A DNA stretch of 64,000 bases from Alligator mississippiensis (Eukaryota; Chordata; Crocodylia; Alligatoridae), in assembly GCF_030867095.1 (NCBI RefSeq), contig NC_081835.1, positions 42,143,892 to 42,207,891 of the forward strand, given 5' to 3'. Below, piece by piece: positions 3,096 to 62,628 of this stretch (position 1 is its first letter; the number at the start of each line of letters is the position of its first letter). Made by a program: the position numbers and the translations under genes. The notes under the pieces were generated by a model. It saw only the letters and a list, made by a program, of their open reading frames with translations. It ran no database searches and was not told the origin of the DNA.

Positions 3096-5250
3096 CAGAG
3101 TGTAAGCCCTCCAGATGATAGGCACTGTCTTCACCTCTCCAGAAGTCTCCCATTTTCAGCCTGGGTTCTGGGGTGCAGAACCCTCTTTAATGAATGGGGT
3201 TCCTCAGCAACCCTGACTGGATGGAGCAAGTCTGTGAGACTTCCCTTTGGAGCTGTGACTTATGTGAGCACAGTGACAAAACAGCCCTTTCAAAATCCTG
3301 TTCAGCCTTAACAGCAAGCATCACTTTGGGCAGCACAACAGAAAAGGGATTTGAAAGCAAGAAAAAGTCTGCATGTTGTCCACCATACCTAATGCTCACA
3401 GTGCACTGCCAGAGGCCCCTCTGCTTCGTACCACACCCCCAGCCTGTTCTCATCTCTGTCTGTTTCCTCGCAAGCAGCCCCTGACTCTTTGCTCTTTTAA
3501 CACCCTCAAAATTCCTTGTCTGCTTTGGCTCGCCTGACTCTGTTCAAGCCAGTTTATTCAGCCTCTTCCCAACTGTGATTCCCAGCCATACTAGTGATCT
3601 CAGCTTGGTGGAGTGTCCAAAGAGCTCGATATTTGTATTGTCCCCTAAGATATTGGTTAATGGAAAGCTACTTTTCCCCCTCTTGGCCTATCCATTGTTT
3701 GCTTGGAAGCATGTAATTAATATTAACGTGCCATTTTCTCAAAAAATAAGGGCACCCCCATATCCACCCCAGAAATCACATAAGTTTGCTTTGTTTAGAG
3801 TGGGCAAATTCCCCAGCATTCTCAAGACTGTGTATAGCAAACAGTAAATACATACATTATTCTGGAATTCACTTTTCACCAAAGTGCTGGCAGGTCAAGC
3901 TCACTTTTCTTGAATGCTTGTGGAGACTGGTGTAAATCTACTTCTACCACCATACATACAAACCTGGGACATGCATTCTGAGAACAGGCAAGTCTCTCCC
4001 CCACACACACAAACCTTACAGGGTGTTTATTGGCAATATGAGACAATAGAGAGAGGGCATTCCATTTGTAGGGTAGCACGAGTGGGGGTGATCTGACATG
4101 CAGGGGACTCTTTTGATTGTACAAAGTTCTCCGTGCTCTACGGACCCTTCTCTGTGCTCTATGTTCTCTTCTGTTAAATTGGGATAGTGCTGCAAGGGCC
4201 TCGGATGGATGGTGCCAGGGTTTACTACAGCCTGCTACTCCAGATCTTCCTCCTGCCACGCAGCATGAGTGACCTAGCTGGAAAGTCTTGTTCCCAAACT
4301 ACTCTGTTTGGCTGAGATTGGAGGCAGGATCAGACATGCTCATTAGCCTCACTTCCTGTGCTATTAATGTCCAGGCCCAGCGACTTGCTGGCAGATATAC
4401 AGAGAGGGCTCTATCCAGGTTAATTTCTGCTTGACTTCAAAGCCAGGAGCTGAGATCTTTTGGCCAATGCATGTCACTGAGCTGGACTCAGGCTTGCTGA
4501 CATCATTTGACTGGAAACAACATGAGATCTGCCAGTGAATGGAAGAGGGGCCCTAACAGGTGCCACTACCAAGCTAACAATCTTTAGCATCAGAATGCCT
4601 CCAATCTGATCAACAGGCAGTGAGCAGCAGGCAGATCAGGGGGGAACTGGATAGGTTGTGTGTGCAAACCAAGGGGAGCATGCATGCGCACAACACATGT
4701 GCCTCTGGCTGCTTGGAGACAGAACTGCTCCATCATGTCCTGTAGGATTCAGTCATACAGTTTACAAAACTTGGGTTTTGAACCTTAAGATGAACTTAAG
4801 GTCAGAGGGGTTGAATGGTCCTGAATTTGCAGCAACATCCTGACCTCCAAGGCCTGCTGCTGCTGAATCTTGAAGCTGTCTGGGGCATGAAAGATCTAAG
4901 CGGCAGAATTCCAAAGGGAAGGGATCCTTGGTTTGTATATCACAGTTCTGCTGATGCTATTCACAGTCAAAACTACCTGAAAAAGCCCTTGCCTCATGGT
5001 TGATTTCCCAGACATTACACTCTGCTGCCTGGTTCCCAGTCTGCAGTCAGAGCCAGTGTCAATGGTACAAAAGTATCAAGCGTGCATGTATTTGAGTGTG
5101 CGCACAAATGCTTTGTGTATATATGCACAAATACGGACTGTGGGGGAGCCAACTTGGTGCAGAACACAGAGTCCCTGTGTCATCCACCCACCGCCAGCTC
5201 TTGCCTTCCACAGACTGTGAATGCAGCTCCCATCCCCCATTCCTCATGCT
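3096..5250. other. Unassigned stretch
   Basis: Mixed-composition sequence. I see no exon-like frame, no RNA gene and no recognisable transposon end. The last part (about 5200-5300) may already belong to the Tx1-like LINE that follows. Confidence 0.45.
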
Positions 5251-9352: not shown

Positions 9353-9850
9353 TCAGTCTTCGGGCACTACACCAGAGCGCCAAGAGTTTTCAAAGATCCG
9401 CGCTAGAGGCTGGGCTATGATGCTCGCCAGCTCCTTGAGTACCCTGGGGTGAAGATTGTCAGGGCCGGCTGACTTGAAGGTATCCAGCTTCTCAAGATGT
9501 TCCTTCACAAAGTCAGCATTAATGGAGGGCAGGGGATCACCCTCACCCGGACTTCCCGGCCCTGTAGCAGGCACGGGAGTCCCATGGGGCTGATGAAAGA
9601 CTGACACAAAGTACCTATTTAATAGGTTGGCTTTTTCCTGGGCGTCAGTTGTCAGTTGCCCCATCTGGTTCAGCAGGGGTCCAACGTTGCCCCTGCTTTT
9701 CCTCCGGCTCCCCACATATCTGAAAAAGGACTTTTTATTGTCCTTGATGCTCAAAGCTAGCTGGAGTTCAGTTGCAGCCTTGGCTTTCCTGGTCTGCTCC
9801 CTACAGGACCGGACCAGTGCAGAATAATCCTCCTTGGAGGTGACTTCCAT
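9353..9850 (-). pseudogene. CR1 ORF2 linker between endonuclease and RT
   Basis: The 165-residue frame carries the CR1 inter-domain region: KDNKKSFFRYVGSRRK, GPLLNQMGQLTTD, KANLLNRYFVSVF and FKSAGPDNLHPRVLKEL. It joins the endonuclease frame through a frame change in the 9757-9850 overlap and ends at a TGA that replaces a Trp codon just before the RT frame. It has no independent function. Confidence 0.8.
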
Positions 9851-10809
9851 CCTTTGTAGGCCTTTCTTTTTAGCCTCAGGAGGTCTGCTAGGTCCCTGGA
9901 GAGCCAGGGGGGCTGCTGTGCCCTCTTGCTGCCTTTCCTCCGAGATGGAATAGACTTAGTTTGTGCATTGAGGATCGCTCCCTTGAGGAGCAACCACTCT
10001 TCCTGAACTCCCCTCTCCCTGTGGTCACAGTCCCTTAGGGCCTCACTGACAAGCCTCCTGAGCTTGTCAAAGTCAGCTTTCCTGAAGTCAAGGACTTGCG
10101 TGTTGCTGACCGACTTGCCAGCTTTTCGGCGGATGGTGAAGGTGATCAGCTCGTGGTCGCTGTCACCCAGCTTCCCATCGATCACTAGGTCGCCGACTAG
10201 GTCCTCCCCAGTAGCCAGCACCAGGTCGAGCAGCGCTTTGCCTCTCATTGGCCCATAGACTTCTTGAGTCAGGTAGAGGTCATCCACGCACGAGAGGAAG
10301 CTCTGCGACCGCTCAGATTTTGCTGAGCGATCCTCCCACGAGATGTCTGGGTAATTGAAGTCACCCATGACAACCATGGTCCTGGAGCAAGCTGCCTCAG
10401 CCAGTTCCTGGGCAAACTCCTGGTCTAGCTCAGGACTTTGGGTGGGAGGTCTGTAATAGACTCCCACCATTGTGTCCCCTGTGCTGTGTTCCCCACGGAT
10501 TTTAACCCAGAGGGTCTCCAGCCGTCCACCCTGGTGGCCAATATCGGCTTGCAGGGACGCGTAGCTTTCCTTAACATAGAGAGCTACACCCCCGCCCCTT
10601 TTCTCTACACGATCCCTCCTGTACAGGGTATAGCCATCTATCCCCGTGGTCCAGTCATGGGTGGAGTCCCACCAGGTCTCCGTGATCCCTATGACATCGT
10701 AATTGTTTGCACTGAGCAGGAGGATGAGCTCCTCCTGCTTATTCCCCAAGCTCCTGGCATTTGTGTACAGGCAGGCAAGCGCCCCCTGGGGGGCTCCTTC
10801 CTTGCCCAC
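9757..10809 (-). CDS. CR1 ORF2 N-terminal APE endonuclease (350 aa open frame)
   Basis: This is an apurinic/apyrimidinic-type endonuclease that would nick target DNA to prime reverse transcription. Motifs: TNARSLGNK (residues 16-24, Asn), GITETWWDS (41-49, catalytic Glu 44), VGVYYRPP (about 115-122), VMGDFNYPDISWE (147-159, Asp 150 and Asn 152) and GDSDHELI (215-222, Asp and His). The Met of MGKEGAPQG matches the usual CR1 ORF2 start region shortly after ORF1 ends at 10926. All expected catalytic residues are visible. The last roughly 20 residues (after WKSPPRR) are out-of-frame sequence following a frame change. Confidence 0.85.
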   Translation of the reverse strand: MGKEGAPQGALACLYTNARSLGNKQEELILLLSANNYDVIGITETWWDSTHDWTTGIDGYTLYRRDRVEKRGGGVALYVKESYASLQADIGHQGGRLETLWVKIRGEHSTGDTMVGVYYRPPTQSPELDQEFAQELAEAACSRTMVVMGDFNYPDISWEDRSAKSERSQSFLSCVDDLYLTQEVYGPMRGKALLDLVLATGEDLVGDLVIDGKLGDSDHELITFTIRRKAGKSVSNTQVLDFRKADFDKLRRLVSEALRDCDHRERGVQEEWLLLKGAILNAQTKSIPSRRKGSKRAQQPPWLSRDLADLLRLKRKAYKGWKSPPRRIILHWSGPVGSRPGKPRLQLNSS

Positions 10810-10925
10810 AGATTTTACCAGGGCTGGGGCTGGGGCGGGCTCCCTTGAGTGCCATGATCCGCTGGCTTTGCAAGATTTGCTAAGCGGGCCAGCAGTGGCG
10901 GTCGTGCCCCCGTCCCCCAGCGGGC

Positions 10926-12023
10926 TTAGTTTAAAGCCCGGTGGAGCAGGTCAGCCAGTCTGGCTGAGAAGAGCCTCCTCCCTAGGGGAGAGAGGTGGAG
11001 ACCATCTCTTCCCAGCAGCTCGCTGCCTCTCTCGCCAAAGAGCGGGCTGTGGTCATGAAAGCCAAAGCCTTCCTGACGACACCAGCGCCGCAGTCTTTGG
11101 TTGACCACATAGATCCTCCTGTCCCTTCTCAGCCCATAGCCTGAGACTGGGAGGATCGACGAGAACACCACCTGTGCCCCCAGACCCTTAAGCCCCGCTC
11201 CCAAATCCCTGTAGCGCCTCATGACCTGGCTGGGAGTGCTCCGAGCCGTGTCATTGGTGCCCACATGAATAAGGAGCATGGGATAGCGGTCTGTGGGTTT
11301 GAGGAGCTTGGGGATCCTCTCCGCAATGTCCCGGATGCGGGCCCCTGGGAAGCAGCAGACTTGCCGGGCTAAGGGGTCAGGGTGGCAGATTGGCCCCTCC
11401 GTCCCCCTCAGGAGGGAGTCTCCCACAACAAACACCTTACGTTTTGTCTTGGGGAGAGCAGGGGCGGGAGTTGCAGTTGGGCCCATGTTGCCTGTGGGGG
11501 CCGGCAACTCAGCAGGCTCTGCTGGGGCAGCAAGAGGCGCATACCTGTTGCTCAGTCGTGGCGGGGGTGGGGCCTTGGTGCGGCGGGCCTTAGGGCCCTT
11601 GACCACCTTGGTCCATGCCCCTGGCTGGACACAGCAGGAGGTCCCAGAGTCCTCCTCTGGCCTGGAGGGAGACTGTGATCTACCCTCTGCCTCCCGGGGG
11701 AGAAGGGCCTGGCAGTAGGAGTCTATCTCCTGCTCTCAGTCCCTGATGGCACGCAGTCTGTGGACTGTGGCCTGGAGCTCCTCCAGCTGGCGCGCCAGAG
11801 ACCCCAAAAGGGAGCAGACCCCACAAGGGGAGGTCGCCATGCTCCCAGGCCCCAGAGCCTGAAAAAGGGACAGGCAGCCCCCGCAGCCGAGAGCCAGGGG
11901 CTCCGTCTGCGTGGAGCCCGGAACCAGGGGCTCCGTCTGGGTGGCTGGCTCTGAGGTGCCAGAGGGGGGGGCCGCGGAGCCCGAGGGGACCCTCGGGGTG
12001 CGGCGCGTGCCCATCCGTGTCAT
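10926..12023 (-). pseudogene. CR1 ORF1 with SGNH/GDSL-type esterase domain, one in-frame stop
   Basis: The N-terminal part (11736-12023) has a Cys-containing TQTEPLALGCGGC segment and a short coiled-coil-like stretch, SLARQLEELQATVHRLRAI. A TGA directly after that (AIRD-stop) interrupts a frame that otherwise continues through DSYCQALLPRE into the 226-residue esterase part. There the hydrolase blocks are VVGDSLLRGTE (nucleophile Ser at about residue 64), HVGTNDTA (about 114-121) and DGLHLSPLG (about 201-209, Asp and His). CR1 ORF1 proteins are known to carry such an esterase and to bind RNA. The stop may be a CpG-decay change from Arg (CGA to TGA). ORF2 starts about 120 bp downstream. Confidence 0.8.
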
Positions 12024-12442
12024 GCCTCTGGTAGGCTGGCTACAGCTGGGACTGTCTACCCTGGGGGGTGCGCAGGCAGGGTCTGGCGCCCTCCCGCACG
12101 CCCTCCCACGCGAACTCCGCGCTAACTCACGCGCCGGCAGAGAAGCGCGCCTGTTTGTGCAGCCTGTTCACGCGGCTCCGGTCACGTGGCTCCCTGGGGG
12201 GCTGGGCGAAGTAGGGGCCTGGGCGGGGCTTGACCCGGCCCGGCTCCACTCAGCTGCCGCCTCCCACACACACACTAAGGGGTTAGCCCCTTCTCTCCAC
12301 GGGCCCCGCTTACCCCGGCTGCGCTGGGGGTCAGCGGGGGGCTCCGCGGCTGCTGGAGGGTTTCTGGGGGGCTTCGGGGGAGCGGGGGTGCAGCGAGCTT
12401 TCACCCACGCGTCTCTCGCCGCTCCCACGTCTAACTGAAGTC

Positions 12443-13851
12443 GTGTGGGTCCTGACAGGTTGCCAGTGAACCTACAAGCGCACCTCCTTGGCCTGCATCA
12501 ATTGGGCCAAAAGCAACACTGTGGTGCTCAGCGTGTGGACTCTGCTGGGGGGACTCTGCTCCCCAACTCTGCTGGGGGGCCTTGTCTGGCACCACAAGGG
12601 CCTCAAGTTCCTGTGAGTATTCTTGGGGCTGTTGACTTTCATGGCACACAACTGGGATAGCGTTGAGGATGGGGTAGAGGCCTGCTTGCAATGGTGGCAC
12701 TGGCACCTACCCAACCTCTCCTACATTGGGTGGGTCCTCATCACCAATAACTTGGTGGCGGCAACCCTGTGACACCAGTGCACTGTGCTCGACCCACCGC
12801 TGGACTTGCTTGAGAGACTTCAACACCTCCTGGTGGACGTCTTCTGGGATGGATGCCACTGGCTCCCATGAGTTGTCCTTTACCTACCTGTCCAAGGGGA
12901 GCCAGAGCCTGGTCGACCTGGTGAGCAAGGTGACCACCTTTTGCCTACAAGCCCTCCAGTGACTCCTCTATGGCACAGAGTGCCTGCCCTGGCAACAAGT
13001 GGCATGCCAGTTCCTGTGGAGAGTGGGGGCCCTTGGCTTTGACCGGGAGATCTTCCTGCTAGACCTCACGCTTCTGAAATGGATGGTGATTCTGGCCTTC
13101 TATCACTGGATAGTCCAAGCCTGGCAGGCCGCCTTCCACCTCTGGCCCCAGGCCCAGTGCCTGTGATTCCCACAGCTGTTGAAGAAACCCCTGGTGCACA
13201 ACCCAGCCCTGCAGCACCCTGTGCCGAGCCTGGCCTCTGCCAGCCTCACAGCCACTCACATCCAAGTGGGTCACCTCCTTGACCCCGCTCAGTTGACCTA
13301 GCTCTCACCCAAAGCCCTAGCCACCTGGCTAGACATGAGCTTTGTCCGCAGCATAGGCCGTCTCCTGCGTGACATCCAAACCACCATCCCATCAGAGGCA
13401 GCAGCCACCCTCAATGATCACCTCTGGGCATGCCAGGCCCTCCTCATCATGGACGCCTTGAGCAAAGCCTTCCCCCCTCTCCTGGTTGCCCCAGCTGTAG
13501 CCAGTGAGCTAGATGGCAGACCAGGCACCCTTGCTGATACTCCCCGTGCCTCCCAACAGCAACTCAGGTTGCCTTTTTGCTTCCCTGCCCTTTAGAAACC
13601 TGTATGCCTGCGTGGTCTGTGTCCACTCCTGTCCACTATGCCCAGGTGCTGGCAAGCCTCCCCGATACACCGTGGTGACAGCACCTAGGATTGGCAGCTT
13701 CCCGACTGGCCCACCCAGCTTAGCACACACTGTATAAGCCGCCAACCGCCAAAAAGACTGGTGACTTACAGTGGCAGTTGCTGCATGACATCCTAGCCAC
13801 TGGCACTTTTGCATCCCACTTTGACCCAGCCGCCTTGATGGCCCGCCCCTT
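12443..13851 (+). pseudogene. Tx1-like LINE ORF2, middle-to-3' part
   Basis: Continuation of the Tx1-like LINE past the CR1 insertion. Translation shows the typical thumb and C-terminal phrases: INWAKSNTVVLS near 12500, LSYIGWVLITNNLVAATL near 12720-12770, PPLDLLERLQHLLVDVFWDG near 12795-12850 and LYLPVQGEPEPGRPGEQG near 12880. The frame contains several stops and shifts. It is interrupted again at 13852 by a CR1 tail. Confidence 0.65.
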
Positions 13852-14411
13852 TTCATAGATTCATAGATGTTAGGGTCAGAAGGGACCTCAATAGATCATC
13901 GAGTCCGACCCCCTGCATAGGCAGGAAAGAGTGCTGGGTCTAGATGACCCCAGCTAGATGTCTATCTAACCTCCTCTTGAAGACCCCTAGGGTAGGGGAG
14001 AGCACCACCTCCCTTGGGAGCCCATTCCACACCTTGGCCACTTGAACTGTGAAGAAGTTCTTCTTAATATCTAGTCTAAATCTGCTCTCTGCTAGCTTAT
14101 GGCCATTATTTCTTGTAACCCCCAGGGGCGCCTTGATGAGTAGAGCCTCACCAATTCCCTTCTGTGCCCCCATGATGAACTTATAGGCAGCCACAAGGTT
14201 GCCTTTCAACCTTCTCTTGTGGAGGCTGAAGAGGTCTAGGTGCTGTAGTGTCTCCTCATAGGGCTTGGCCTGCAAGTCCTTTACCATACGAGTGGCCCTT
14301 CTCTGGACCCTCTCCAGGTTATCCACATTCCTCTTGAAGTGCGGTGCCCAAAATTGCACGCAGTATTCCAACTGCAGTCTGAGCAGCACCCAATAGAGGG
14401 GAATTATCACT
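13852..14411 (-). mobile_element. 5'-truncated CR1 3' fragment
   Basis: The 156-residue open frame (13940-14410) is the C-terminal end of CR1 ORF2: [53 protein letters not shown] and FRLDIKKNFFTVQVAKVWNG, ending in HLAGVI. The 3' tail with TTCATAGATTCATAG starts at about 13854. A likely 6 bp target duplication CCTTTT flanks it (before 13855 and again near 14413-14418). It lies inside the Tx1-like LINE, near where that LINE's C-terminal zinc-knuckle region would be expected. Confidence 0.82.
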
Positions 14412-14870
14412 TCCTTTTGTCCTGAGGGTGTCGAGGAGAGCCTCTTTCACGCCTTCCTTGCCTGTCCCCATGTATGACCGCTCTTTACTGCCCTGAAGCC
14501 ATTGCTTCGGGTGTTGGGCAGGGGCCTCTCTGAGAGCTCTTGTGTATACTCCTATCCATACCAGGCAGCTGAGCAGGGTGCCGTATGCTGGGCCAGGCTA
14601 AGATGGCTGTTCTTAAGAGCCACCACAACCAGCTTACTGAGACTGACTTGGACAATGCCCTGTGGCTCTTCTGCCTCCTAGTGCAGGCATGCCTCTCACT
14701 GGAGTTCAAGTACACTGTGCTCTGGAAGGCAGTGTGTGCCTTTGAGGCACGCTGGACCCTTGAGGAGGCACTGTATCACATGGAAGATGGCTGTCTTCAG
14801 CACGTGCTCTTGTTGGCTACAAATGTCCAACTCGGGATCCTTAAAATTCTGGTTTATTAGGCGGATTGAA
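14412..14870 (+). pseudogene. Tx1-like LINE 3' remainder
   Basis: Directly after the CR1 tail the translation resumes as PEGVEESLFHAFLACP, matching the ExxxFHAFLACP block found at the C-terminus of Tx1-type ORF2. The rest is degraded. The LINE body seems to end near 14870, before a CA microsatellite. Confidence 0.55.
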
Positions 14871-32804: not shown

Positions 32805-35074
32805 ATAGGCGATCTAGGAAGTTTTTGGAGGGTGTTGGGGGCAACTTCCTGGTACAAGTGTTGGAGAGATCAATGAGGGGCCATGCTCTTCTTGACCTGC
32901 TGCTCACAAACAGGGAAGAATTGGTGGGGGATGCAGAAGTGGATGGCAACTTGGGCAGCAGTGACCATGTGATGATTGAGTTCAGGATCCTGACAAAAGG
33001 AAGGAGAGCAGCAGAGAAGGTCCCTAGACTTCAGGAAAACAGATTTTGACTCACTCAGGGAAATAACTGAGGGGCAGGATCCCCTGGGAGGCCAGTTTGA
33101 GGGGGAAAGGAGTCTAGAAGATCTGGTTGTATGTTAAAGATCAGCTTGGTTTAACAGAGAACTATGCGGTGAGCTTAAACACGCAAAGGAAGCTTACAAG
33201 AAGTGGAAACTTGGACAAACAGTTAGGGAGGAAGATAAGAATATTGCTCAGGCATGCAGGGATGAAGTTGGGAACTCCAAAGCACAATTGGAGTTACAGC
33301 TAGCAAGGGATGTGAAGGGTAACAAGAAGGGTTTCTACAAGTATGTCAGCAACAAGAGGAAGGTTAGGGAAAGTGTGGGTCCCTTGCTGAATGAAGGAGC
33401 CAACCTAATGACTGATGATGAGGAAAAGGCTGAAGTACTCAATGTCTTTTTTACCTTGGTCTACACAGGCAAGGTCAGACTACTGCACCAAGCAGCACTG
33501 TTTGGGAAGAAGGTGAGCAGCCCTTAGTGGTGAAAGAACAGGTTAGGGACTATTTAGAAAAGCTGGACTTGTACAAGTCCATGGGGCTAGATGCAATGCA
33601 TCCAAGGGCGCTGAGGAAGTTGGCTGATGTGATTGCAGAACTGCTGGCTGTTATATTTGAAAACTCATGGAGATTGGGGGAGGTTCTAGATGATTGGAAA
33701 AGGGCAAATACAGTGCCCATCTCTAAGAAAGGGAAGAAGGGGGATCCAGGAAACTACAAACCAGTCAGCCTCACCTCAGTCCCTGAAAAATCATGAAACA
33801 GGTTCTCAAGCAATCCATTTCTAAACACTTGTGAGAAGAAGAAGGTGATTAGGAACAGTCAGCATGGATTCACCAAGGGCAAGTCATCCCTGACCAACCT
33901 GATTGCCTTCTAGGATGAGCTGACTGATTCTGTGGATGTGGGGAAAGCAGTGGACATGATATACCTTGACTTTAGCAAGGATTTTGAGGCCATCTCTCAA
34001 AGCATGCTTTCAAGCAAACTGAGGAAGTATGGGTTGGATGAATGGTCTGTAAGGTGAATAGGAAGTTGGCTTGATTGTCAGGCTCAATGGATAGTGATCA
34101 ATGACTTGAGGTCTTGTTGGTTGCTGGTGCCCCAGGTATCAGTCCCAGGGTCAGTTTTATTCAATATCTTCATTTACAATCTGAAAGATAGGATGGATTG
34201 CACCCTCATCAAGTTCATGGATGATATGCTGGAAGGTAGAACTAGGATTTAGAGTGACCAAGACAAATTGAAGGATTGGGCCAAAAGAAATCTCATGAAG
34301 TTCTACAAGGAAAGTGCAAAGTCCTGCACTTAGGATGGAACAATCCCATGCACCAGTATAGGATTGGGATCAACTGGCTAAGCAGCAGCTCTGCAGAAAA
34401 AGACCTGGGGGCTACAGTGAACAATAAGATGCATATGTATGAACAGCATACCCTTGTTGCCAAGAAGGCTAACAACATACTGGGCTGCATTAGTAGAAGC
34501 ATTGCTAGCAGATCGAAGGAAGTAATTATTCTCCTCTGTTGTGTATTGGTGAGGTCACATCTGGAGTACTGCGCCCAGTTTTTTTTCCCCACTACAGAAA
34601 GGATGTGGACAAGTTAGAGAGAGTCTAGCAGAGGGCAACAAAAATAGTTAGGAGTCTGAGGCACATGACTTATGAGGAGAGGCTGAGGGAACTGGGTTTA
34701 TTTAGGCTGCAGAAGAGAAGACTAAGCAGGGGATTTGAGAGCAGCCTTTAACTACCTGAAAGGTGGTTACAAAGAGGATGGAGCTAGACTGTTCTCAGTG
34801 GTGATAGATGACAACAAGGAGCAATGGTCTCAAGTTGCAGCAAGGGAAGTTTAGGTTGGATACTAGGAAAAAACTCTCTCACTAGGAGCGGGGTGAAGCA
34901 CTGGAATGGGTTACCTAGAGAGGTGGTGGAATCTCCATCCTTGGAGGTTTTTAAGGCCCAGCTCTACAAAGCCCTGGCTGGAATGATCTAGTGGAGATGG
35001 TCCTGCTTTGAGCAGGGGGTTGGACTAGATGACCTCCTGAGGTCCCTTCTGACCTGAATTTTCTATGATTCTAA
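32805..35074 (+). pseudogene. Old CR1 LINE, ORF2 from late endonuclease to 3' tail
   Basis: Recognisable in order: FLVQVLERSMRGHALLDLLL and GSSDHVMIEF (endonuclease end, 32840-32990), LQLARDVKGNKKGFYKYVSN (33290), DLYKSMGLDAMHPRALRKL (33565), NYKPVSLTSVPE (33750), QHGFTKGKSSLTNL (about 33860), a decayed LDFSKDFE block (about 33970), KCKVLHLGWNNPMHQYRIG (34310) and LEYCAQFF (34560). The tail reads GACTAGATGACCTCCTGAGG then TTCTATGATTCTA at 35061-35073. Many stops, indels and losses (including in the FADD motif) show that it is much older than the CR1 copies at 7.9-12.4 and 39.2-45.5 kb and from another subfamily. Confidence 0.85.
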
Positions 35075-38812: not shown

Positions 38813-39194
38813 ATGTTACTAATGACCCACCACATGGTGGAGGCAGGGGTTAAGGCACCTCAACCTGCCTTTCACTGGGATGGTCCTTGAACCTGGCATT
38901 TGCTGGCCCTGCCCCACCACTGGCAGGACCACCAGACCTCCCTATCCCAGCAGGGTGCAGTTTTAGGTCATGCCCAGGACCAGGAGCCTCCTAGCCACCT
39001 CGTAGCTCCTGCCCTTACCTCCGTGTTGTCCCTGGTGCAGCAGCTCTACCGGGAGATGTTCCTTTCTCAGCACCAGGTAGCAACTGCTGCCTCCAGCCCT
39101 ACTGGCCTGAGTCTTAAAATGGCCGATCGTCAGGACTGGGCTGCACCTTCCTGGTGCCTGGCCCAGTTCTTAAAGTGGCAGAGCACCATGAGTG

Positions 39195-40547
39195 CTCTCA
39201 CCTCTATCCTTGGCAAAGTCTTTGAAAAAATTATCAAGGCTCACATATGCGAGAGCCCGGCAAGAAAAATTATGCTGGGGGGAAACCAGCACGGGTTCGT
39301 GGCAGGCAGATCATGCCTGACCAATCTAGTCTCTTTTTATGACCAGGTTACGAAATGCCTGGACACAGGAGTAGGGGTGGATGTCGTATACTTAGACTTC
39401 AGGAAGGCCTTCAGTACGGTATCCCACCCCATACTGGTGAACAAGTTAAGAGGCTGTGACTTGGATGACTACACAGTCCGGTGGGTGGTGAATTGGCTGG
39501 AGGGTCGCACCCAGAGAGTCGTGGTGGATGGGTCGGCTTCAACCTGGAAGGGTGTGGGCAGTGGGGTCCCGCAGGGCTCGGTCCTTGGACCAATACTTTT
39601 TAATGTCTTCATCAGTGACTTGGACGAAGGAGAGAAATGTACTCTCTCCAAGTTTGCAGATGACACAAAGCTATGGGGAGAAGTGGACATGCCGGAGGGC
39701 AGGGAACAGCTGCAAGCAGACCTGGACAGGTTAGACAAGTGGGCAGAAAACAACAGAATGCAGTTCAACAAGGAGAAATGCAAAGTGCTGCACCTAGGGA
39801 GGAAAAATGTCCAGCACGCCTACTGCCTAGGAAATGACCAGCTGGGTGGCACAGAGGTGGAAAGGGATCTCGGAGTCCTAGTGGACTCTAAGATGAACAT
39901 GAGTCGGCAGTGTGACGAAGCCATCAGAAAAGCCAATGGCACTTTATCGTGCATCAGCAGATGCATGATGAATAGGTCCAAGGAGGTGATACTTCCCCTC
40001 TATCGGGCGCTGGTCAGACCGCAGTTGGAGTACTGTGTGCAATTCTGGGCACTGCAATTCAAGAGGGATGCGGATAACCTGGAGAGGGTCCAGAGAAGGG
40101 CCACTCGTATGGTTAAGGGCCTGCAGACCAAGCCCTACAAGGAGAGACTACAGAAACTGGACCTTTTCAGCCTCCGCAAGAGAAGGTTGAGAGGCGACCT
40201 TGTGGCTGCCTATAAGTTCATCACGGGGGCACAGAAGGGAATTGGTGAGGTTTTACTCACCAAGGCGCCCCCCAGGGGTTACAAGAAATAATGGCCACAA
40301 GCTAGCAGAGAGCAGATTTAGATTGGACATTAGGAAGAACTTCTTTACAGTTCGAGTGGCCAAGGTCTGGAACGGGCTCCCAAGGGAGGTGGTTCTCTCC
40401 CCTACCCTGGGGGTCTTCAAGAGGAGGTTGGATAACCATCTAGCTGGGGTCGTCTAGACCCAGCACTCTTTCCTGCCTATGCAGGGGGTTGGACTCGATG
40501 ATCTATTGAGGTCCCTTCCGGCCCTAACATCTATGAATCTATGAATC
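39195..40547 (+). mobile_element. 5'-truncated young CR1 with an intact RT core
   Basis: The frame is open from LTSILGKVFEKIIKAHI through GNQHGFVAGRSCLTNLVSFY, VYLDFRKAFSTVSH (first catalytic Asp), [20 protein letters not shown] and FADDTKLWGE (catalytic pair) to the C-terminal [13 protein letters not shown] block. A frame change near 40262 (KAPPRG / [11 protein letters not shown]) separates the last 60-odd residues, which end at 40457 in HLAGVV. The 3' tail carries ATCTATGAATCTATGAATC (about 40529-40547). The open frame extends 5' into unrelated sequence to an ATG at 38900, giving 463 codons. The 3' end abuts an older CR1 fragment on the other strand. Confidence 0.88.
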
Positions 40548-46487: not shown

Positions 46488-47559
46488 TCAGACCTTTGGG
46501 TCATGACAAGGAGGACCATGATATCCCTATTAAGCCAAGAGGGCTTCCCAGCCCTTCTGCTACCTTTCTTCCACATGGGAATGGACATCTTTTGTTCTTC
46601 GAGGATTGTGTCCTTGAGGAACAACCACTCTTCATGCACTCCTTTCACCTTCAGTCCCTGGTTCTGCAGTGCTTCCCCTACTATTACTCTGAGCCTGTTG
46701 AAATTTGCTTGAAGTCCAAAACTTCAAACCTGATAGCTGATTTTCCTGCCTTGTAATGGACAGTGAACATGATGGTTTTGTGGTAGCTGTCACCCAGGCT
46801 GCCCTCTATATTCAAGTCACTCACCAGATCACCTCCTTTGGTCAAGACCTAGTCTAGGAGAGCATTACCTCTGGTTGGCCTGTGCACTTCCTGAGTCAGG
46901 TACAGCTCTTCAATACAGGTCAGGAAGCAACATGACCGATCCGACTTAGCCAAGTGTTCATCCCAAGAGATGTCTGGGTAATTGAAGTCACCCATGATGA
47001 CCATGTCCTGTGCATGCATGGCCTCTGCCAGTTCTTAAGAGAACTCCAGATCAAGCTCCTCCCCCTGGTTTGGTGGTCTGTCGTATACACCTACAGTTAG
47101 GTCTCTCTCATTGCATCCCCTGCATAGTTTGACCCAGAGGGTTTCGAGCTGCTCATCTTTGGAGCCAATGCTGGCCTCCAAGGAGGTGTACTGCTCCCTC
47201 ACATAGAGAGCTACACTGCCACCTTTCTTCCCTACTTGGTCCCTTCTGTGCAGGGTGTAGCCCTCAATGGCTATGTTCCAAATATGTGAGGAGTCCCACC
47301 AGGTCTCCGTAATCCCTACTAGATCGTAATGCCCAGTGGAGAGTAGGAAGGCTAGCTCCTCCTGCTTGTTCCCCATGCTCCTGGCATTAGTAAACAGGCA
47401 CCTGAGTCCTCCAGTTGAGACCCTCGATTTCCTGTCACACTTTGGGAGAACCACACCCTCAGCTCTTTCAAGAGTGGCTCTTCAGCCCTGCATGTCCTGC
47501 AGCCTGAGATGACCATCTTCCAGGTAGCTCTGGGTGGGTCTTTTCGGCCAGCCTTCTTG
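46488..47559 (-). pseudogene. CR1 ORF2 endonuclease region, truncated
   Basis: Read on the minus strand from 47454: LRCLFTNARSMGNKQEELAF, GITETWWDSSHIWN, VGVYDRPPNQGEELDLEFS (then a stop), VIMGDFNYPDISWDE, GNALLD, GDLVSDLNIEGSLGDSYHKT (SDH decayed to SYH). It ends within the linker (SGCSSRTQS). Several stops are present. It stops abruptly next to the candidate LTR. On the other side it is interrupted by hAT copy D. Confidence 0.8.
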
Positions 47560-47567
47560 TTGGCCAC

Positions 47568-48155
47568 TAGGGCTGTGCAAAGCTTTGGGTGCTGATTCAA
47601 TTCAGAGGAGATTCGGCCTGATTCGGTGGCTGAACCTCTGAATCCAAATCAAATCAGGGGACCAATTAGAAGGTCCGAATCGATTCGAACAGTCCCTGCC
47701 CTCTGTAGCAGGGAGCTGGAGTCGGACTTGGGGCTAGTAAGTAGGGACAGGGGAGGGGGGGCTGGAGGAGGAGGAAGGGGACCATGGCAGGGACCCCTGC
47801 CAGGCCCCATCCCCTGCCTGCTCCCCCAGCCCCCCCATGGCTGCCTTACCCACCCCAGCTCCCAGTGCTTTAAAAAAACAAAACCCTACTCATCAGGTGC
47901 TGCTGGGCAGGAGGGGGCAGTCCCTGCTGCCCTCCACTTCCCCATGCTGCATGGGGGGCTCTGCCACGATCCCTCGAAGCCCCCCTGACTCTCCCAACCA
48001 CCCCATGACTGCCCCGCCCACCCCAGCTCCAGCCCTTTAAGAACTCCCCCCCGCAAAAACCCCGGACTCAGGGTTCCTGCCCACCAGGGGGTGATCCCTG
48101 CTGCCCCCCACTGCCCCGTGCCATATGGGGGGCTCTGCATGACCTCCTGAAGCCC
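47568..48155. mobile_element. hAT-type MITE copy D, right end missing
   Basis: The left end TAGGGCTGTGCAAAGC at 47568 is the clearest terminus of this family. AATCGATTCGAA-type subterminal units and the CCCCATCCCCTGCCTG-type interior match copies B and E. No right terminus is found before CR1 ORF1 5' sequence begins near 48155. Compared with an intact CR1, the esterase part of ORF1 is absent here, so a deletion probably removed it together with the right half of the element. Confidence 0.65.
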
Positions 48156-48324
48156 TGAGGCCGCTGCAGGAGCTGGTGAGTTCTGCAGCCTGGCAGTACC
48201 AATCAATGTAGTCTTTGTGGGCCCTGATGGTGCGTAGCTGATGTACCTCCTCCTCGAGCTCTGGCACCCTGCCCTCCAGAGACTACGCTAGGGAGCACAT
48301 CCCACAAGTGGGGGTGCCCCCTTG
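48101..48324 (+). repeat. Left arm of a 224 bp near-perfect inverted duplication
   Basis: It pairs base for base with 48801-49024 (coordinates sum to 97125), with a single mismatch found over 224 bp. It spans the hAT-D/CR1 junction and the CR1 ORF1 coiled-coil region (EEVHQLRT.RAHKDYIDWY on the minus strand). Confidence 0.93.
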
Positions 48325-48730
48325 CCCAGCTGCCAGCAGCTGTGCTACGCAGCCCCCACAGCCCAGAGCCAGAGGCTGTGTCTGGGTGGAGACCTTGGCG
48401 GTTCTGGGAAGCCTGCAGGCACAATGAGTCTCTACCATGGCTGAGAGCAAGTCCACCCCCCTACCTGGTCCCAGTAGCTTCACTTCAGGCTTAAGGCCTC
48501 AGGCTCCTCACTCAGCCCAGCCCTCTGGGCACCCTCCATATGCCCCTCTGCGCAAACTCCCACACTAACTGCTGGGCCTGAGAAGAGCTGCACCTGTTTG
48601 TGTGCTCTGTTCACGTAGCTCAGGTCACGGGGCTCGCTGGGGGCCTCAGCTAAGTAGGGACCTGTGGGGGGAGGAAGCATCCCCCTCCCTTGTCCCAATC
48701 AGCTGGCGTGTCCTGCCTGGCATGGCCCCC

Positions 48731-48796
48731 ACACTCACACACACGCACATACGCGCACACACTTACACACACTTACACACACACACACACACACAC
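48731..48796. repeat. Imperfect (CA)n microsatellite in CR1 5' UTR
   Basis: ACACTCACACACACGCAC followed by purer AC units. The intact CR1 has a short CCCACACACACAC at the equivalent place, so this is an expansion. Confidence 0.85.
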
Positions 48797-48800
48797 CCCA

Positions 48801-49024
48801 CAAGGGGGCACCCCCACTTGTGGGATGTGCTCCCTAGCGTAGTCTCTGGAGGGCAGGGTGCCAGAGCTCGAGGAGGAGGTACATCAGCTACGCACCAGCA
48901 GGGCCCACAAAGACTACATTGATTGGTACTGCCAGGCTGCAGAACTCACCAGCTCCTGCAGCGGCCTCAGGGCTTCAGGAGGTCATGCAGAGCCCCCCAT
49001 ATGGCACGGGGCAGTGGGGGGCAG
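48801..49024 (-). repeat. Right arm of the 224 bp inverted duplication
   Basis: Reverse complement of 48101-48324 with one mismatch (a G for T in the CACCATCAGG/CACCAGCAGG position). The inner edge is sharp, right after the CA repeat, and the outer edge is sharp at 49024. The arm is out of orientation with the CR1 sequence on both sides, so it is the inserted copy. Confidence 0.93.
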
Positions 49025-49299
49025 CTCAGAGCACCCCTGCGCTTGCCCACCTTCTCCTTGCCCCTGGTTCCCTTAACTCCTGTCTCTGCGCTGGGGGTTC
49101 AGTGGTGTCCAGGTGGTGTCTGGGTCTTCAGCTCCCGGGGGTGCAATGGGTGTTTACCCACGCGTCTCCACCAAGGAGCAGGTCCGAACTGAAAGTAACT
49201 TTCAGTTGGGGCCTAATTTCAAACACAGGGACTTCCAGTGCAAGACAGATGGAGATGCTAATTGGTCTGTACTTCCCATGCATGGCCATGCTAGATGGT

Positions 49300-49655
49300 A
49301 AGGGTCCAGAGGCAAGAAAGATGATAAAGGGCTTGGAAGGCAAGTCACATGAAACGAGACTTAAGGAGCTAGGCATGTTCAGCTTATGGAAAAGGTGCTA
49401 AAGAGGGGACATGACATCAGTCTTCAAGTACCTGAAGTGCTGCCATAAAGAAGAGGGAAAATACCTTTTCTCTCTTGCTGCAGAGAGGAAGACACATACC
49501 AATGGCTTAAAGTTGTAGCAAAGTAAGTTTACATTGGATATTGGGGAAAAAATCCTTTACTGTTAGAATGGTGAAGCAGTAGAATACACTACTAGGGAAG
49601 TGGTGGTTGGATGGCCAGGTTGGAGAGCCACTGGCCGGGGATGATACAGGTGTAA
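49300..49655 (+). pseudogene. Old CR1 ORF2 C-terminus and 3' end
   Basis: KMIKGLEGKSHETRLKELGM and FSLWKRC correspond to the 'RMI.GL...Y..RL..L.LFSL.KRR' block, then GDMTSVFKYLKC and a decayed FTLDIGEKI. Stops are present. It is an older subfamily than the CR1 sequence next to it. Confidence 0.7.
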
Positions 49656-52837: not shown

Positions 52838-54034
52838 TCAGAAGGAGTGCCGGTGAACCACAAAAGGCCCCTTGTCACTGTAGTCCTTTTGGCTGATCCA
52901 GACATTCTGGAAGGAGTTGAGAGAGGCCACAATAGAGCCGCCCAGCCAGGCAGCAAAGCTGCGATGGGGGGAAGCCAGGATGGCCACCTGCTCCTTGCCT
53001 GTCATCTCCATCTTCAGCAGCTCCTTCTTGATTCTCTCCGAGAAGCCCCGGATCATGGTGGTGCCACCAGCCAGCACCACATTGGCCAGCAGCTCTGCAC
53101 GGTGTTTCGGCTTGCACTTTCTGATGCTGTTCATGGCATGGATGTGAATACCTGCCTCAGGAAAGCCCAGCACAGCGGGGTTGAAGAGGGCCTCAGGGCC
53201 CCGGAACCGCTCGCTGCCAATGGAAATGACCTGCTGGTCAGGGAGGATGAAGTCCATGAGGTATTTCTTCTCATCTCCATTCAGCTCTGCGTGGAAGTCC
53301 TCAGGGATGTAGCAGCACTTTTCCTTGATGTTGCTCACCAGCTTCAACTCATCTTCTCGGAAGGGGTTGCCACACTCCCCCATCAGCTTGGCCAGGTAGT
53401 CTGTCAGAGCACAGCCTGCCACATCTAGCCGGTAGGTGGCATGGGGTAGGACGTAGCCGTCATGGACAGGGGCCGTGTAGGATGTCCCATAGCCAGAGCC
53501 AATCACCAGCCCTTTGGTGCGTCCATAGGAGTACACAGACAGCAGGGACTGGTGCGCCACAAACATTGCCGGGACCTCAAAGTTCTCAAAGAGCAGCTCA
53601 GCCATCTTCTCCCGGTTGGTGGTTGGGGACAAGGGTGCATCTGTGACCAGCACGGCCAGCTCCTCAGGGCACACACTAAGCTCCGTGTAGAAGATGTGAT
53701 GCCACAGCATCTCTAGGGCATCCCAGTCTGTAACCACGCCATGGGTCATCACGGTGTTGGCAGTCACCTCTGAGCTATTGCTGGGGATGCTTTTCCCAAT
53801 GTAATACAGGGGACTGTCATTGGTCCTGACCTTGGGGACCCCCACACGGCTCGGGACCACAGAGCGTGGCTTCTCATCGCCAGCCAGGCCGCTCTTGGTG
53901 TAGCCAGTGCCAGTGTCTATCACAACAGCACTGTAGTCCTTGTATTTCTCTGCTGCATCTGACGTGGAGACTTCCCGGGATGCAGGCTCATAGCCAGCAG
54001 AACCCGGGCTCTTAGGATTCCTCGGATAGATCAT
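52838..54034 (-). CDS. Intronless actin-like protein (ACTL7/ACTL9-type), 398 aa
   Basis: Full-length actin fold in one exon. Phosphate-1 loop VIDTGTGYTKSG at about 38-49 (Asp40, Lys47); WHHIFYTEL and VCPEELAVLVTDAPLSPTTN at 111-140; PAMFVAHQSLLSVYSYGRT at 155-173 keeps the Gln of actin Q137 (Q162). LPHATYRLDVAG is at about 196-207, LAGGTTMIRGFSERI at 321-335 and a VVHRHSF C-terminus replaces VHRKCF. The phosphate-2 loop is changed: GLVIGSGYGTSYTAP puts Gly179, Tyr182 and Tyr186 where conventional actin has D154, D157 and H161. The D-loop is about four residues shorter and lacks the GVMVGMGQ sequence. An N-terminal extension of about 30 residues is present. These losses and the single exon fit the testis actin-like group (ACTL7A/B, ACTL9, ACTRT). 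Segments recalled from human ACTL7A and ACTL9 match about equally, so no symbol is given. ATG has a purine at -3. A role in the sperm head cytoskeleton is inferred from the family. Confidence 0.93.
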   Translation of the reverse strand: MIYPRNPKSPGSAGYEPASREVSTSDAAEKYKDYSAVVIDTGTGYTKSGLAGDEKPRSVVPSRVGVPKVRTNDSPLYYIGKSIPSNSSEVTANTVMTHGVVTDWDALEMLWHHIFYTELSVCPEELAVLVTDAPLSPTTNREKMAELLFENFEVPAMFVAHQSLLSVYSYGRTKGLVIGSGYGTSYTAPVHDGYVLPHATYRLDVAGCALTDYLAKLMGECGNPFREDELKLVSNIKEKCCYIPEDFHAELNGDEKKYLMDFILPDQQVISIGSERFRGPEALFNPAVLGFPEAGIHIHAMNSIRKCKPKHRAELLANVVLAGGTTMIRGFSERIKKELLKMEMTGKEQVAILASPHRSFAAWLGGSIVASLNSFQNVWISQKDYSDKGPFVVHRHSF

Positions 54035-54126
54035 TTCTTCAGGCCCTCTCTCTCAAACCTTACTGTGATCCCAAGACCCAGCCCAGGAGTACCAGGCTCC
54101 AGGAAAGGATCTAAGATCATGCCAGT

Positions 54127-60559: not shown

Positions 60560-62628
60560 GATCAGACATTTTAGCCACTTCAGGGAAATATCAGCTCTGG
60601 ACAAAAACTCTAAATCTTACCAATTGAGTACTTTCATCTACCCAATGGGGGATCAGGCCGATGAAATTCTGATGGCACTGCCTCTTACAAATGTAGAGAA
60701 AAAGTAATATCCTGATCTGTTAGAGGCATTAGCTGAACATTTTTGGGTAAAAGAAATGTGATTTAAGAATAAACTAGATTCAGTTTCCAGAACTAGAGCC
60801 TTCAGAACCTGTAAATAGCTTTATTACATCTTTGCATACATTGGCTGAATCTTGCCACTATGGGGATCTCAAGGAAGAACTAATTAGGGACTGCTTTAGT
60901 TGTGGGTCCTCATGATGAATAGCTCTCACGAAGACCACAGTTGGACCCTGATTTACTCCAGGAGGCTGTAACACAAGCCCATTAATCAGAGTTAGTTAAG
61001 CAGCAACAAAGGAAATAAGATGCAATGCACATTGTCAAGAAACTATAATAAAAAATAAATAGAATTGACATGCACAATGAACAAAGGAAGTGGTCCCACC
61101 AGCACCCACAGCAACAACCAAGTGGGAAAGGGGTCAATGCTGCCAATTTGGTAAAATCCCTGGACATGGCTATGCTAGATGTCCTGCTAAGGAAGAGATA
61201 TATCAACAATGTAAAAAGAAAGGTCACTACACTTTAGTTTGTTGCTCAACCACAGGAGTCCATGAAGTCATAGAACAAGAATGAGGATTTTATTGTGTTA
61301 TTAGAAGAACCACAGAGTCTTCATCAGACCCAGGAATCTGGATGACAGAAATACAGCTAAATGGACAGCCAATTCCATTTAAAATTGATACAGGAGTGAC
61401 AGTTTCAGCTATACCTGATACTTATTACAGCCAACATAGGGATGGGATCCTCCTTTCTCCTACTAAAAGATGAGGAGGACCAGGTGAAATTCCCTTTAAA
61501 GTACTGTGCCAAAAAAGACATATTCTTCCTTCAGTGAAACACACCTTGGCTTAACTTGCAGGAGCCGAGATCTTCACAAAATTGGATGCTAAGGCAGGAT
61601 TCTGGCAGATTACCCTAGCTGTTGAATCATCCAAGCTGACAACTTTTATTACTCTATTTGAACAATTGCAATGGTTACCTTTCGGTATCTCATCAGCTTC
61701 TGTATTATTTCAACTTTGGATGTCACAGATACTGGACGGCCTAGAAGGTGTTCGTCATGCCAATGACATTTTGGTTTTTGGGAGTACCAAGACACAACAT
61801 GATAAAAGATTGGATGCAACACAGAAAACTCCCAAAAGCCAGAGTTAAACTTAATGAAAAGTACACTTTTGCTACCTCTCAACTCATGTTTGTGGGACAC
61901 TGGATTACACCACAAAGAATCCAACCAGATCCAGCAAAAGTTGCAGCTATTAAGGGGTTACCAGAGCCCAAAGATGTCCCAGAATTACACAGATTTTTAG
62001 GAATGGCCACATACTTGGGCCTTTTTGTGCCAGACCTGGCAAAAATAACAAAACCTTTAAAAGACCTTTTAAGTGACAAGAACTTATGGCTCTGGGGTAT
62101 ACTACAACAGTCAGCCCTCAGTGAGATCAAATCAATACTCAGCTCATCCCTGATGCTAGCCCAAATGATTCTGCATGAGAAACATGAAGCAGATGCTTCA
62201 TCCTGTGGACTTGGAGCAGTGTTACAACACTGTCAAGAAGCTGGCCATTGGGGCCCTATTGCCTTTGTGTCAAGAGCACTTGTTCCACCTGGAACTCAAT
62301 ATACATAAATAGAAAAAGAAGCACTAGCAGTTACAGGGACATGCGAGTGACTCAGAACTTTCCTCGTCGGCCTAACTTTTACTTTACAAATGAATCATAA
62401 GCCACTTGTACCCCTGCTAGGAGACAAACTTCTCAATAAACTCCCACTGAGAATCCATAGATTTCACCTCAGGATGCTGTGCTTCACCTACAATATTGTA
62501 CACATTCCTGGAAAAGAGATACAGACAGCTGATACTCTTTCTAGGGCACCATTACAGACACCACTGTTTCTGCAAGAACTCTTCCAAAAGCAAGATTTTG
62601 CTGTTTAGGTGGACCTATTGCAGAGGGG
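60560..62628 (+). mobile_element. Ty3/gypsy LTR-retrotransposon internal region (fossil)
   Basis: Parts recognisable in order are a gag remnant with a CCHC zinc-knuckle region (about 61090-61290), an aspartic protease remnant (about 61370-61440), reverse transcriptase (about 61580-61860) and RNase H (about 62170-62560). The order protease, RT, RNase H is that of Ty3/gypsy pol. The copy is heavily broken, with many interruptions. No integrase or flanking LTRs were recognised. It is old. A hAT element lies at its right edge. Confidence 0.8.

Follow-up and report, generated by a model that had tools for sequence, protein, structure and literature searches.

A 225-nt inverted duplication in an old LINE of Alligator mississippiensis, probably a templated inverted insertion beside a (CA)n tract

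The window analysed here, a whole stretch of 64,000 nt, carries on its minus strand an element that we take, as to family name, to be a CR1-type LINE. The endonuclease part of ORF2 of this CR1 was found at 47035..47481 (minus strand; Pfam PF03372, E 1.2e-05), and a colinear diverged copy of the same element is present in the window at ~9353-12478. The CR1 is interrupted by a non-CR1 insertion (47568..48187, putative hAT copy D), the last 88 nt of which belong to the left arm of the inverted pair described below. The border between both sequences was located at ~48187/48188, with the CR1 match restarting at 48187-48191 in 20 copies fetched from the genome, and the junction of the inserted element with CR1 is inside the left arm, as the initial annotation had claimed. 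About 40 nt of CR1 that the copies normally carry at ~48187/48188 are absent from this CR1. The CR1 part of the left arm is labelled ORF1, presumably correctly, from its position. The host CR1 is an old, dead element, and the arms sit in broken repeat sequence; as both of them do so, no function is indicated, and the pair is probably without one.

Other features were detected around this element. A region at 49398-49606 (plus strand) shows 67% resemblance to 34722-34929 and presumably represents a CR1 3′ end of opposite orientation, this element and the host CR1 lying head to head. Some 3.8 kb away from the right arm, at 52838-54052 (minus strand), a 404-aa frame between stops has a match to actin (PF00022, E 1.7e-104) and looks like an intronless actin-like gene. 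The fragment at 61745-62308 (plus strand), perhaps left over from an LTR-type element, contains an RNase H-like reverse-transcriptase domain (PF17919). Another inverted pair, 13852-14416 / 39980-40545, has units of 566 bp with 90.8% identity, 25.6 kb apart. The second unit partly overlaps a reverse-transcriptase frame at 38891-40291 (PF00078), and therefore these are probably two LINE copies.

When the window was compared with itself by BLAST, the arms 48100-48324 and 48801-49025 were found to be reverse complements at 224 of 225 positions (one mismatch). The BLAST E value of the pair in the 64-kb window was 8e-120, so it is no chance match. The left arm (48100..48324, plus strand) consists of 88 nt of non-CR1 sequence followed by 137 nt of the CR1 5′ part, in which CR1 is on the minus strand. 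It is followed by a spacer of 476 nt (48325..48800) made of CR1 5′ region, oriented like the CR1 of the left arm, near the end of which lies a (CA)n tract (48730..48796, plus strand). The right arm (48801..49025, minus strand) is the inverted copy of the left arm, and beyond it the CR1 5′ region continues at 49025..49223 (minus strand), base 49025 being assignable to either part. The only mismatch is an A at 48227 of the left arm, where the right-arm counterpart has a C, read on the left-arm strand. The pair, its single mismatch, the 476-bp spacer and the sharp ends of pairing had all been proposed previously and were confirmed here, the identity between the arms dropping to background on either side; the extent had to be corrected by one base, from 48101-48324 / 48801-49024 with 223/224 matches.

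No further similarity was found between the inner flanks of the arms (null fraction 0.71). The outer flanks resemble each other at 8 of 13 positions (null 0.6%, or 3.4% by local score), a likeness that was sought post hoc. An extension of the arms to 237 nt, which amounts to 9 matching bases of the 13 beyond the 224-nt arms, was not adopted and is taken as weak evidence only.

For a background comparison, the window and 20 sampled stretches of 10 kb, drawn from nine contigs, were each compared with themselves (BLAST, E 1e-4). Among the inverted pairs in 262,779 non-N bases, only the arm pair reached both 40 bp and 95% identity; none with at least 95% identity appeared in the 198,779 sampled bases outside the window, a sample too small for calling such pairs rare. 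The nearest pair in the background (L039:2790-3024 / 4245-4480) has units of 236 bp with 91.5% identity and 1,220 nt between them.

The assembly (2.35 Gb, 195 contigs) was then searched with the arm. Among the 40 matches scored, of 1678 candidates, two were full-length, the arms themselves, and the other 38 (83-89% identity) were confined to the CR1 portion of the arm (positions ~87-224). Therefore, the left arm begins with 88 nt of a different sequence. Twenty of these 38 CR1 copies were fetched and compared with the flanks of the right arm by blastn on one strand. Both flanks were matched in eight of them (L010, L014, L015, L017, L018, L019, L021 and L028), with 0-71 nt between the matches, whereas 12 of the 20 gave no far-side match at E 1e-3 within the fetched stretch and are silent on the empty site; for one of these 12 (L009), the longer version L003 shows that 1,333 nt separate the CR1 portion of the arm from the far flank. 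The copy at 11707-12478 of the window also matches both flanks, its right-flank score being 83.5, compared with 30.0 when the right flank was reversed and no more than 47.5 over 200 base shuffles. The empty sites defined in this way are paralogous CR1 copies, not orthologous loci. As these copies run from flank to flank, the right arm is a clean insertion into the CR1 5′ region, and the CR1 continues in register on either side of it, which bears out the earlier description of an arm inverted relative to the CR1 around it.

With seven further loci obtained by a search with the right flank, both strands of 33 CR1 loci (L003-L028 and L050-L056; 25 distinct places) were examined, which left the conclusions as they were. 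Thirty-one of the 33 had the CR1 portion of the arm exactly once, and L050 and L054 lacked it. In none of the 33 loci (25 places) did the arm occur in two orientations, nor was there any match at E 1e-3 to the 88 non-CR1 nt.

A separate feature of these copies is that the CR1 5′ region forms head-to-tail repeats, offset by ~370-485 nt, in six of eight loci examined (five places): L028 (C4:203718720-203720520), L050, L052, L053, L054 and L056, with none in L051 or L055. Eleven of the 40 matches of the right-flank search fell within five head-to-tail clusters. The arrangement resembles that of the arrayed monomers in mouse L1 promoters, and no paper on it was found among the titles listed in a literature search.

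At the insertion site, the copies show a CA-rich stretch followed by roughly CACCC-TCTGAGCACCCC, whereas this CR1 has CACACCCCA, the arm and then CTCAGAGCACCCC. Therefore, ~2-5 nt were lost on insertion. A possible microhomology of 2 nt (CA) at entry and 1 nt (C) at exit can be proposed, the pre-insertion bases being assumed from diverged copies. AAGGGG, present in the diverged in-window copy, was rejected as entry microhomology, being missing from closer aligned copies. When the junctions of the right arm were read directly, no target-site duplication or poly(A) was recognised. The motif CACCCC does occur to either side of the arm; in the right flank, however, it sits several nt in, at a place where a number of other copies have it natively. 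The right arm had been placed exactly at the end of the CA repeat; it is indeed near, but the (CA)n tract ends at 48796, four bases before the arm.

The mismatch allowed the direction of copying to be read. Position 48227 is A in 20 of 21 CR1 copies, G in one and C in none. As the CR1 copies carry the left-arm base, the left arm served as template and the right arm, which has the derived base here, was copied from it. Over 135 columns, ten differences from the family majority were common to both arms, one was found in the right arm only and none in the left arm only. The host CR1 had therefore gathered most of its substitutions before the copying.

What lies at the locus is thus a copy, made in the left-to-right direction and inserted cleanly into continuous CR1, with no recognisable target-site duplication or poly(A). 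We consider it likely, with a probability of roughly 0.87, that the right arm arose as a templated inverted insertion next to the (CA)n tract, through synthesis involving fold-back or a template switch. The paralogous empty sites and the polarised mismatch support this origin, which the initial annotation had already put forward.

Close inverted repeats can undergo gene conversion, and an old inverted duplication might have been kept alike by conversion from arm to arm, a history that would be compatible with a templated origin. The arms diverge by 0.4% from each other versus 7-8% from the family majority, from which the 20 fetched copies diverge by 8-14%. However, with a single mismatch neither a converted patch nor a gradient can be seen, and conversion is not needed: at the rate used for crocodilian endogenous retroviruses, given as 3.9e-10 substitutions per site per year (PMC4299795), one difference in 225 corresponds to an age of 5.7 My (Poisson range 0.14-32 My). 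Therefore, the near-identity of the arms requires no special maintenance, and we regard conversion as unlikely. The near-identity had been attributed to a recent event, to conversion or to an artefact; the event may instead be millions of years old, the second is unneeded and the third, as argued below, is improbable.

It is also quite improbable that the right arm is an RNA-templated patch, in which a transcript of the left arm was reverse-transcribed to fill a break, as in class 2 templated sequence insertions. Such insertions are described with no target-site duplication or poly(A) and with microdeletion and microhomology (PMC5110952), much as here, where the microhomology is a possible one. 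The donor, however, is only ~700 nt from the insertion site on the same chromosome, whereas class 2 donors are described in that source as distant, and the copy bears no sign of RNA processing. Retroposition by a LINE (class 1) was discarded, as neither poly(A) nor target-site duplication was seen.

An artefact of assembly or library preparation, by which a chimeric molecule would have put an inverted copy in the contig, is very improbable. Near-identical inverted neighbours are a known class of artefact, but a fold-back read retraces its own strand and is not expected to re-enter the far side. Here, the CR1 is re-entered in register within a few bases beyond the right arm, as at the empty sites, resuming at 49025, which makes an assembly fold-back unlikely; in addition, the right arm has one substitution of its own. 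Transposition, with the pair as a fold-back element or the right arm as a separate transposed copy, can practically be dismissed: the long inverted arms are superficially like such elements, but older sequence runs on unbroken from either end of the left arm, no target-site duplication was seen at the right arm, and no further full-length match was found among the 40 scored.

Under the preferred reading, a break or a stalled fork in the CR1 5′ region, next to the (CA)n tract, would have left a 3′ end that annealed in inverse orientation to sequence close by. The ~225 nt copied from there would comprise part of the CR1 and of the older insertion it carries, and the copied strand would then have been rejoined to the far side with the loss of a few bases. 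A break or fork stall is the presumed start of the insertion, and the (CA)n tract, which ends four bases short of the right arm, is a plausible place for it. The 3′ end may have folded back, with the 476-nt spacer as the loop, or may have switched to the sister strand, the mechanism being inferred from the product.

Mutations of this kind are known, and one example has little weight by itself; yet template, copy, direction and empty site can all be read from this one, for a class of mutation described mainly from primates, yeast and tumours in the literature cited here. It also illustrates that near-identical inverted arms within an old repeat need not imply conversion or artefact where the substitution rate is low. 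It is conceivable, though doubtful, that local inverted templated insertions are longer in this germline (225 nt versus at most 128 nt in great apes), possibly as slow-evolving reptile genomes keep them recognisable for many My; if true, the length and distance spectrum of such insertions would be readable far deeper in time.

Compared with known systems, the insertion differs from the class 2 templated sequence insertion polymorphisms described in PMC5110952 in that its donor is local and inverted, although the features of the junctions are compatible. In the search for MMBIR templated insertions reported in PMC8421209, templates were taken at 100 bp or less and inserts were limited to the read length. 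In yeast, Pol delta primes fold-back inversions that end joining then closes, and their length goes up to ~150 bp according to PMC11724301, so that the 225 nt found here are longer, and the units of small inverted triplications average 148-160 bp, as given in PMC13334657. The human fold-back inverted duplications with a disomic spacer described in PMC3907307 share with this case a spacer in normal copy number and possibly a short inverted microhomology (2-8 bp there) at the spacer edge, but they are far larger, their spacers measuring 766-70,466 bp, whereas the present one is interstitial, of 225 bp and with a spacer of 476 nt. With the short-range template switches of the four-point model (PMC7954356), the locus shares the insertion of a nearby inverted copy with little other change at the site; the gold-standard events reported there for great apes have a median of 12 nt and a maximum of 128 nt, compared to 225 nt copied over ~700 nt from donor to site in the alligator.
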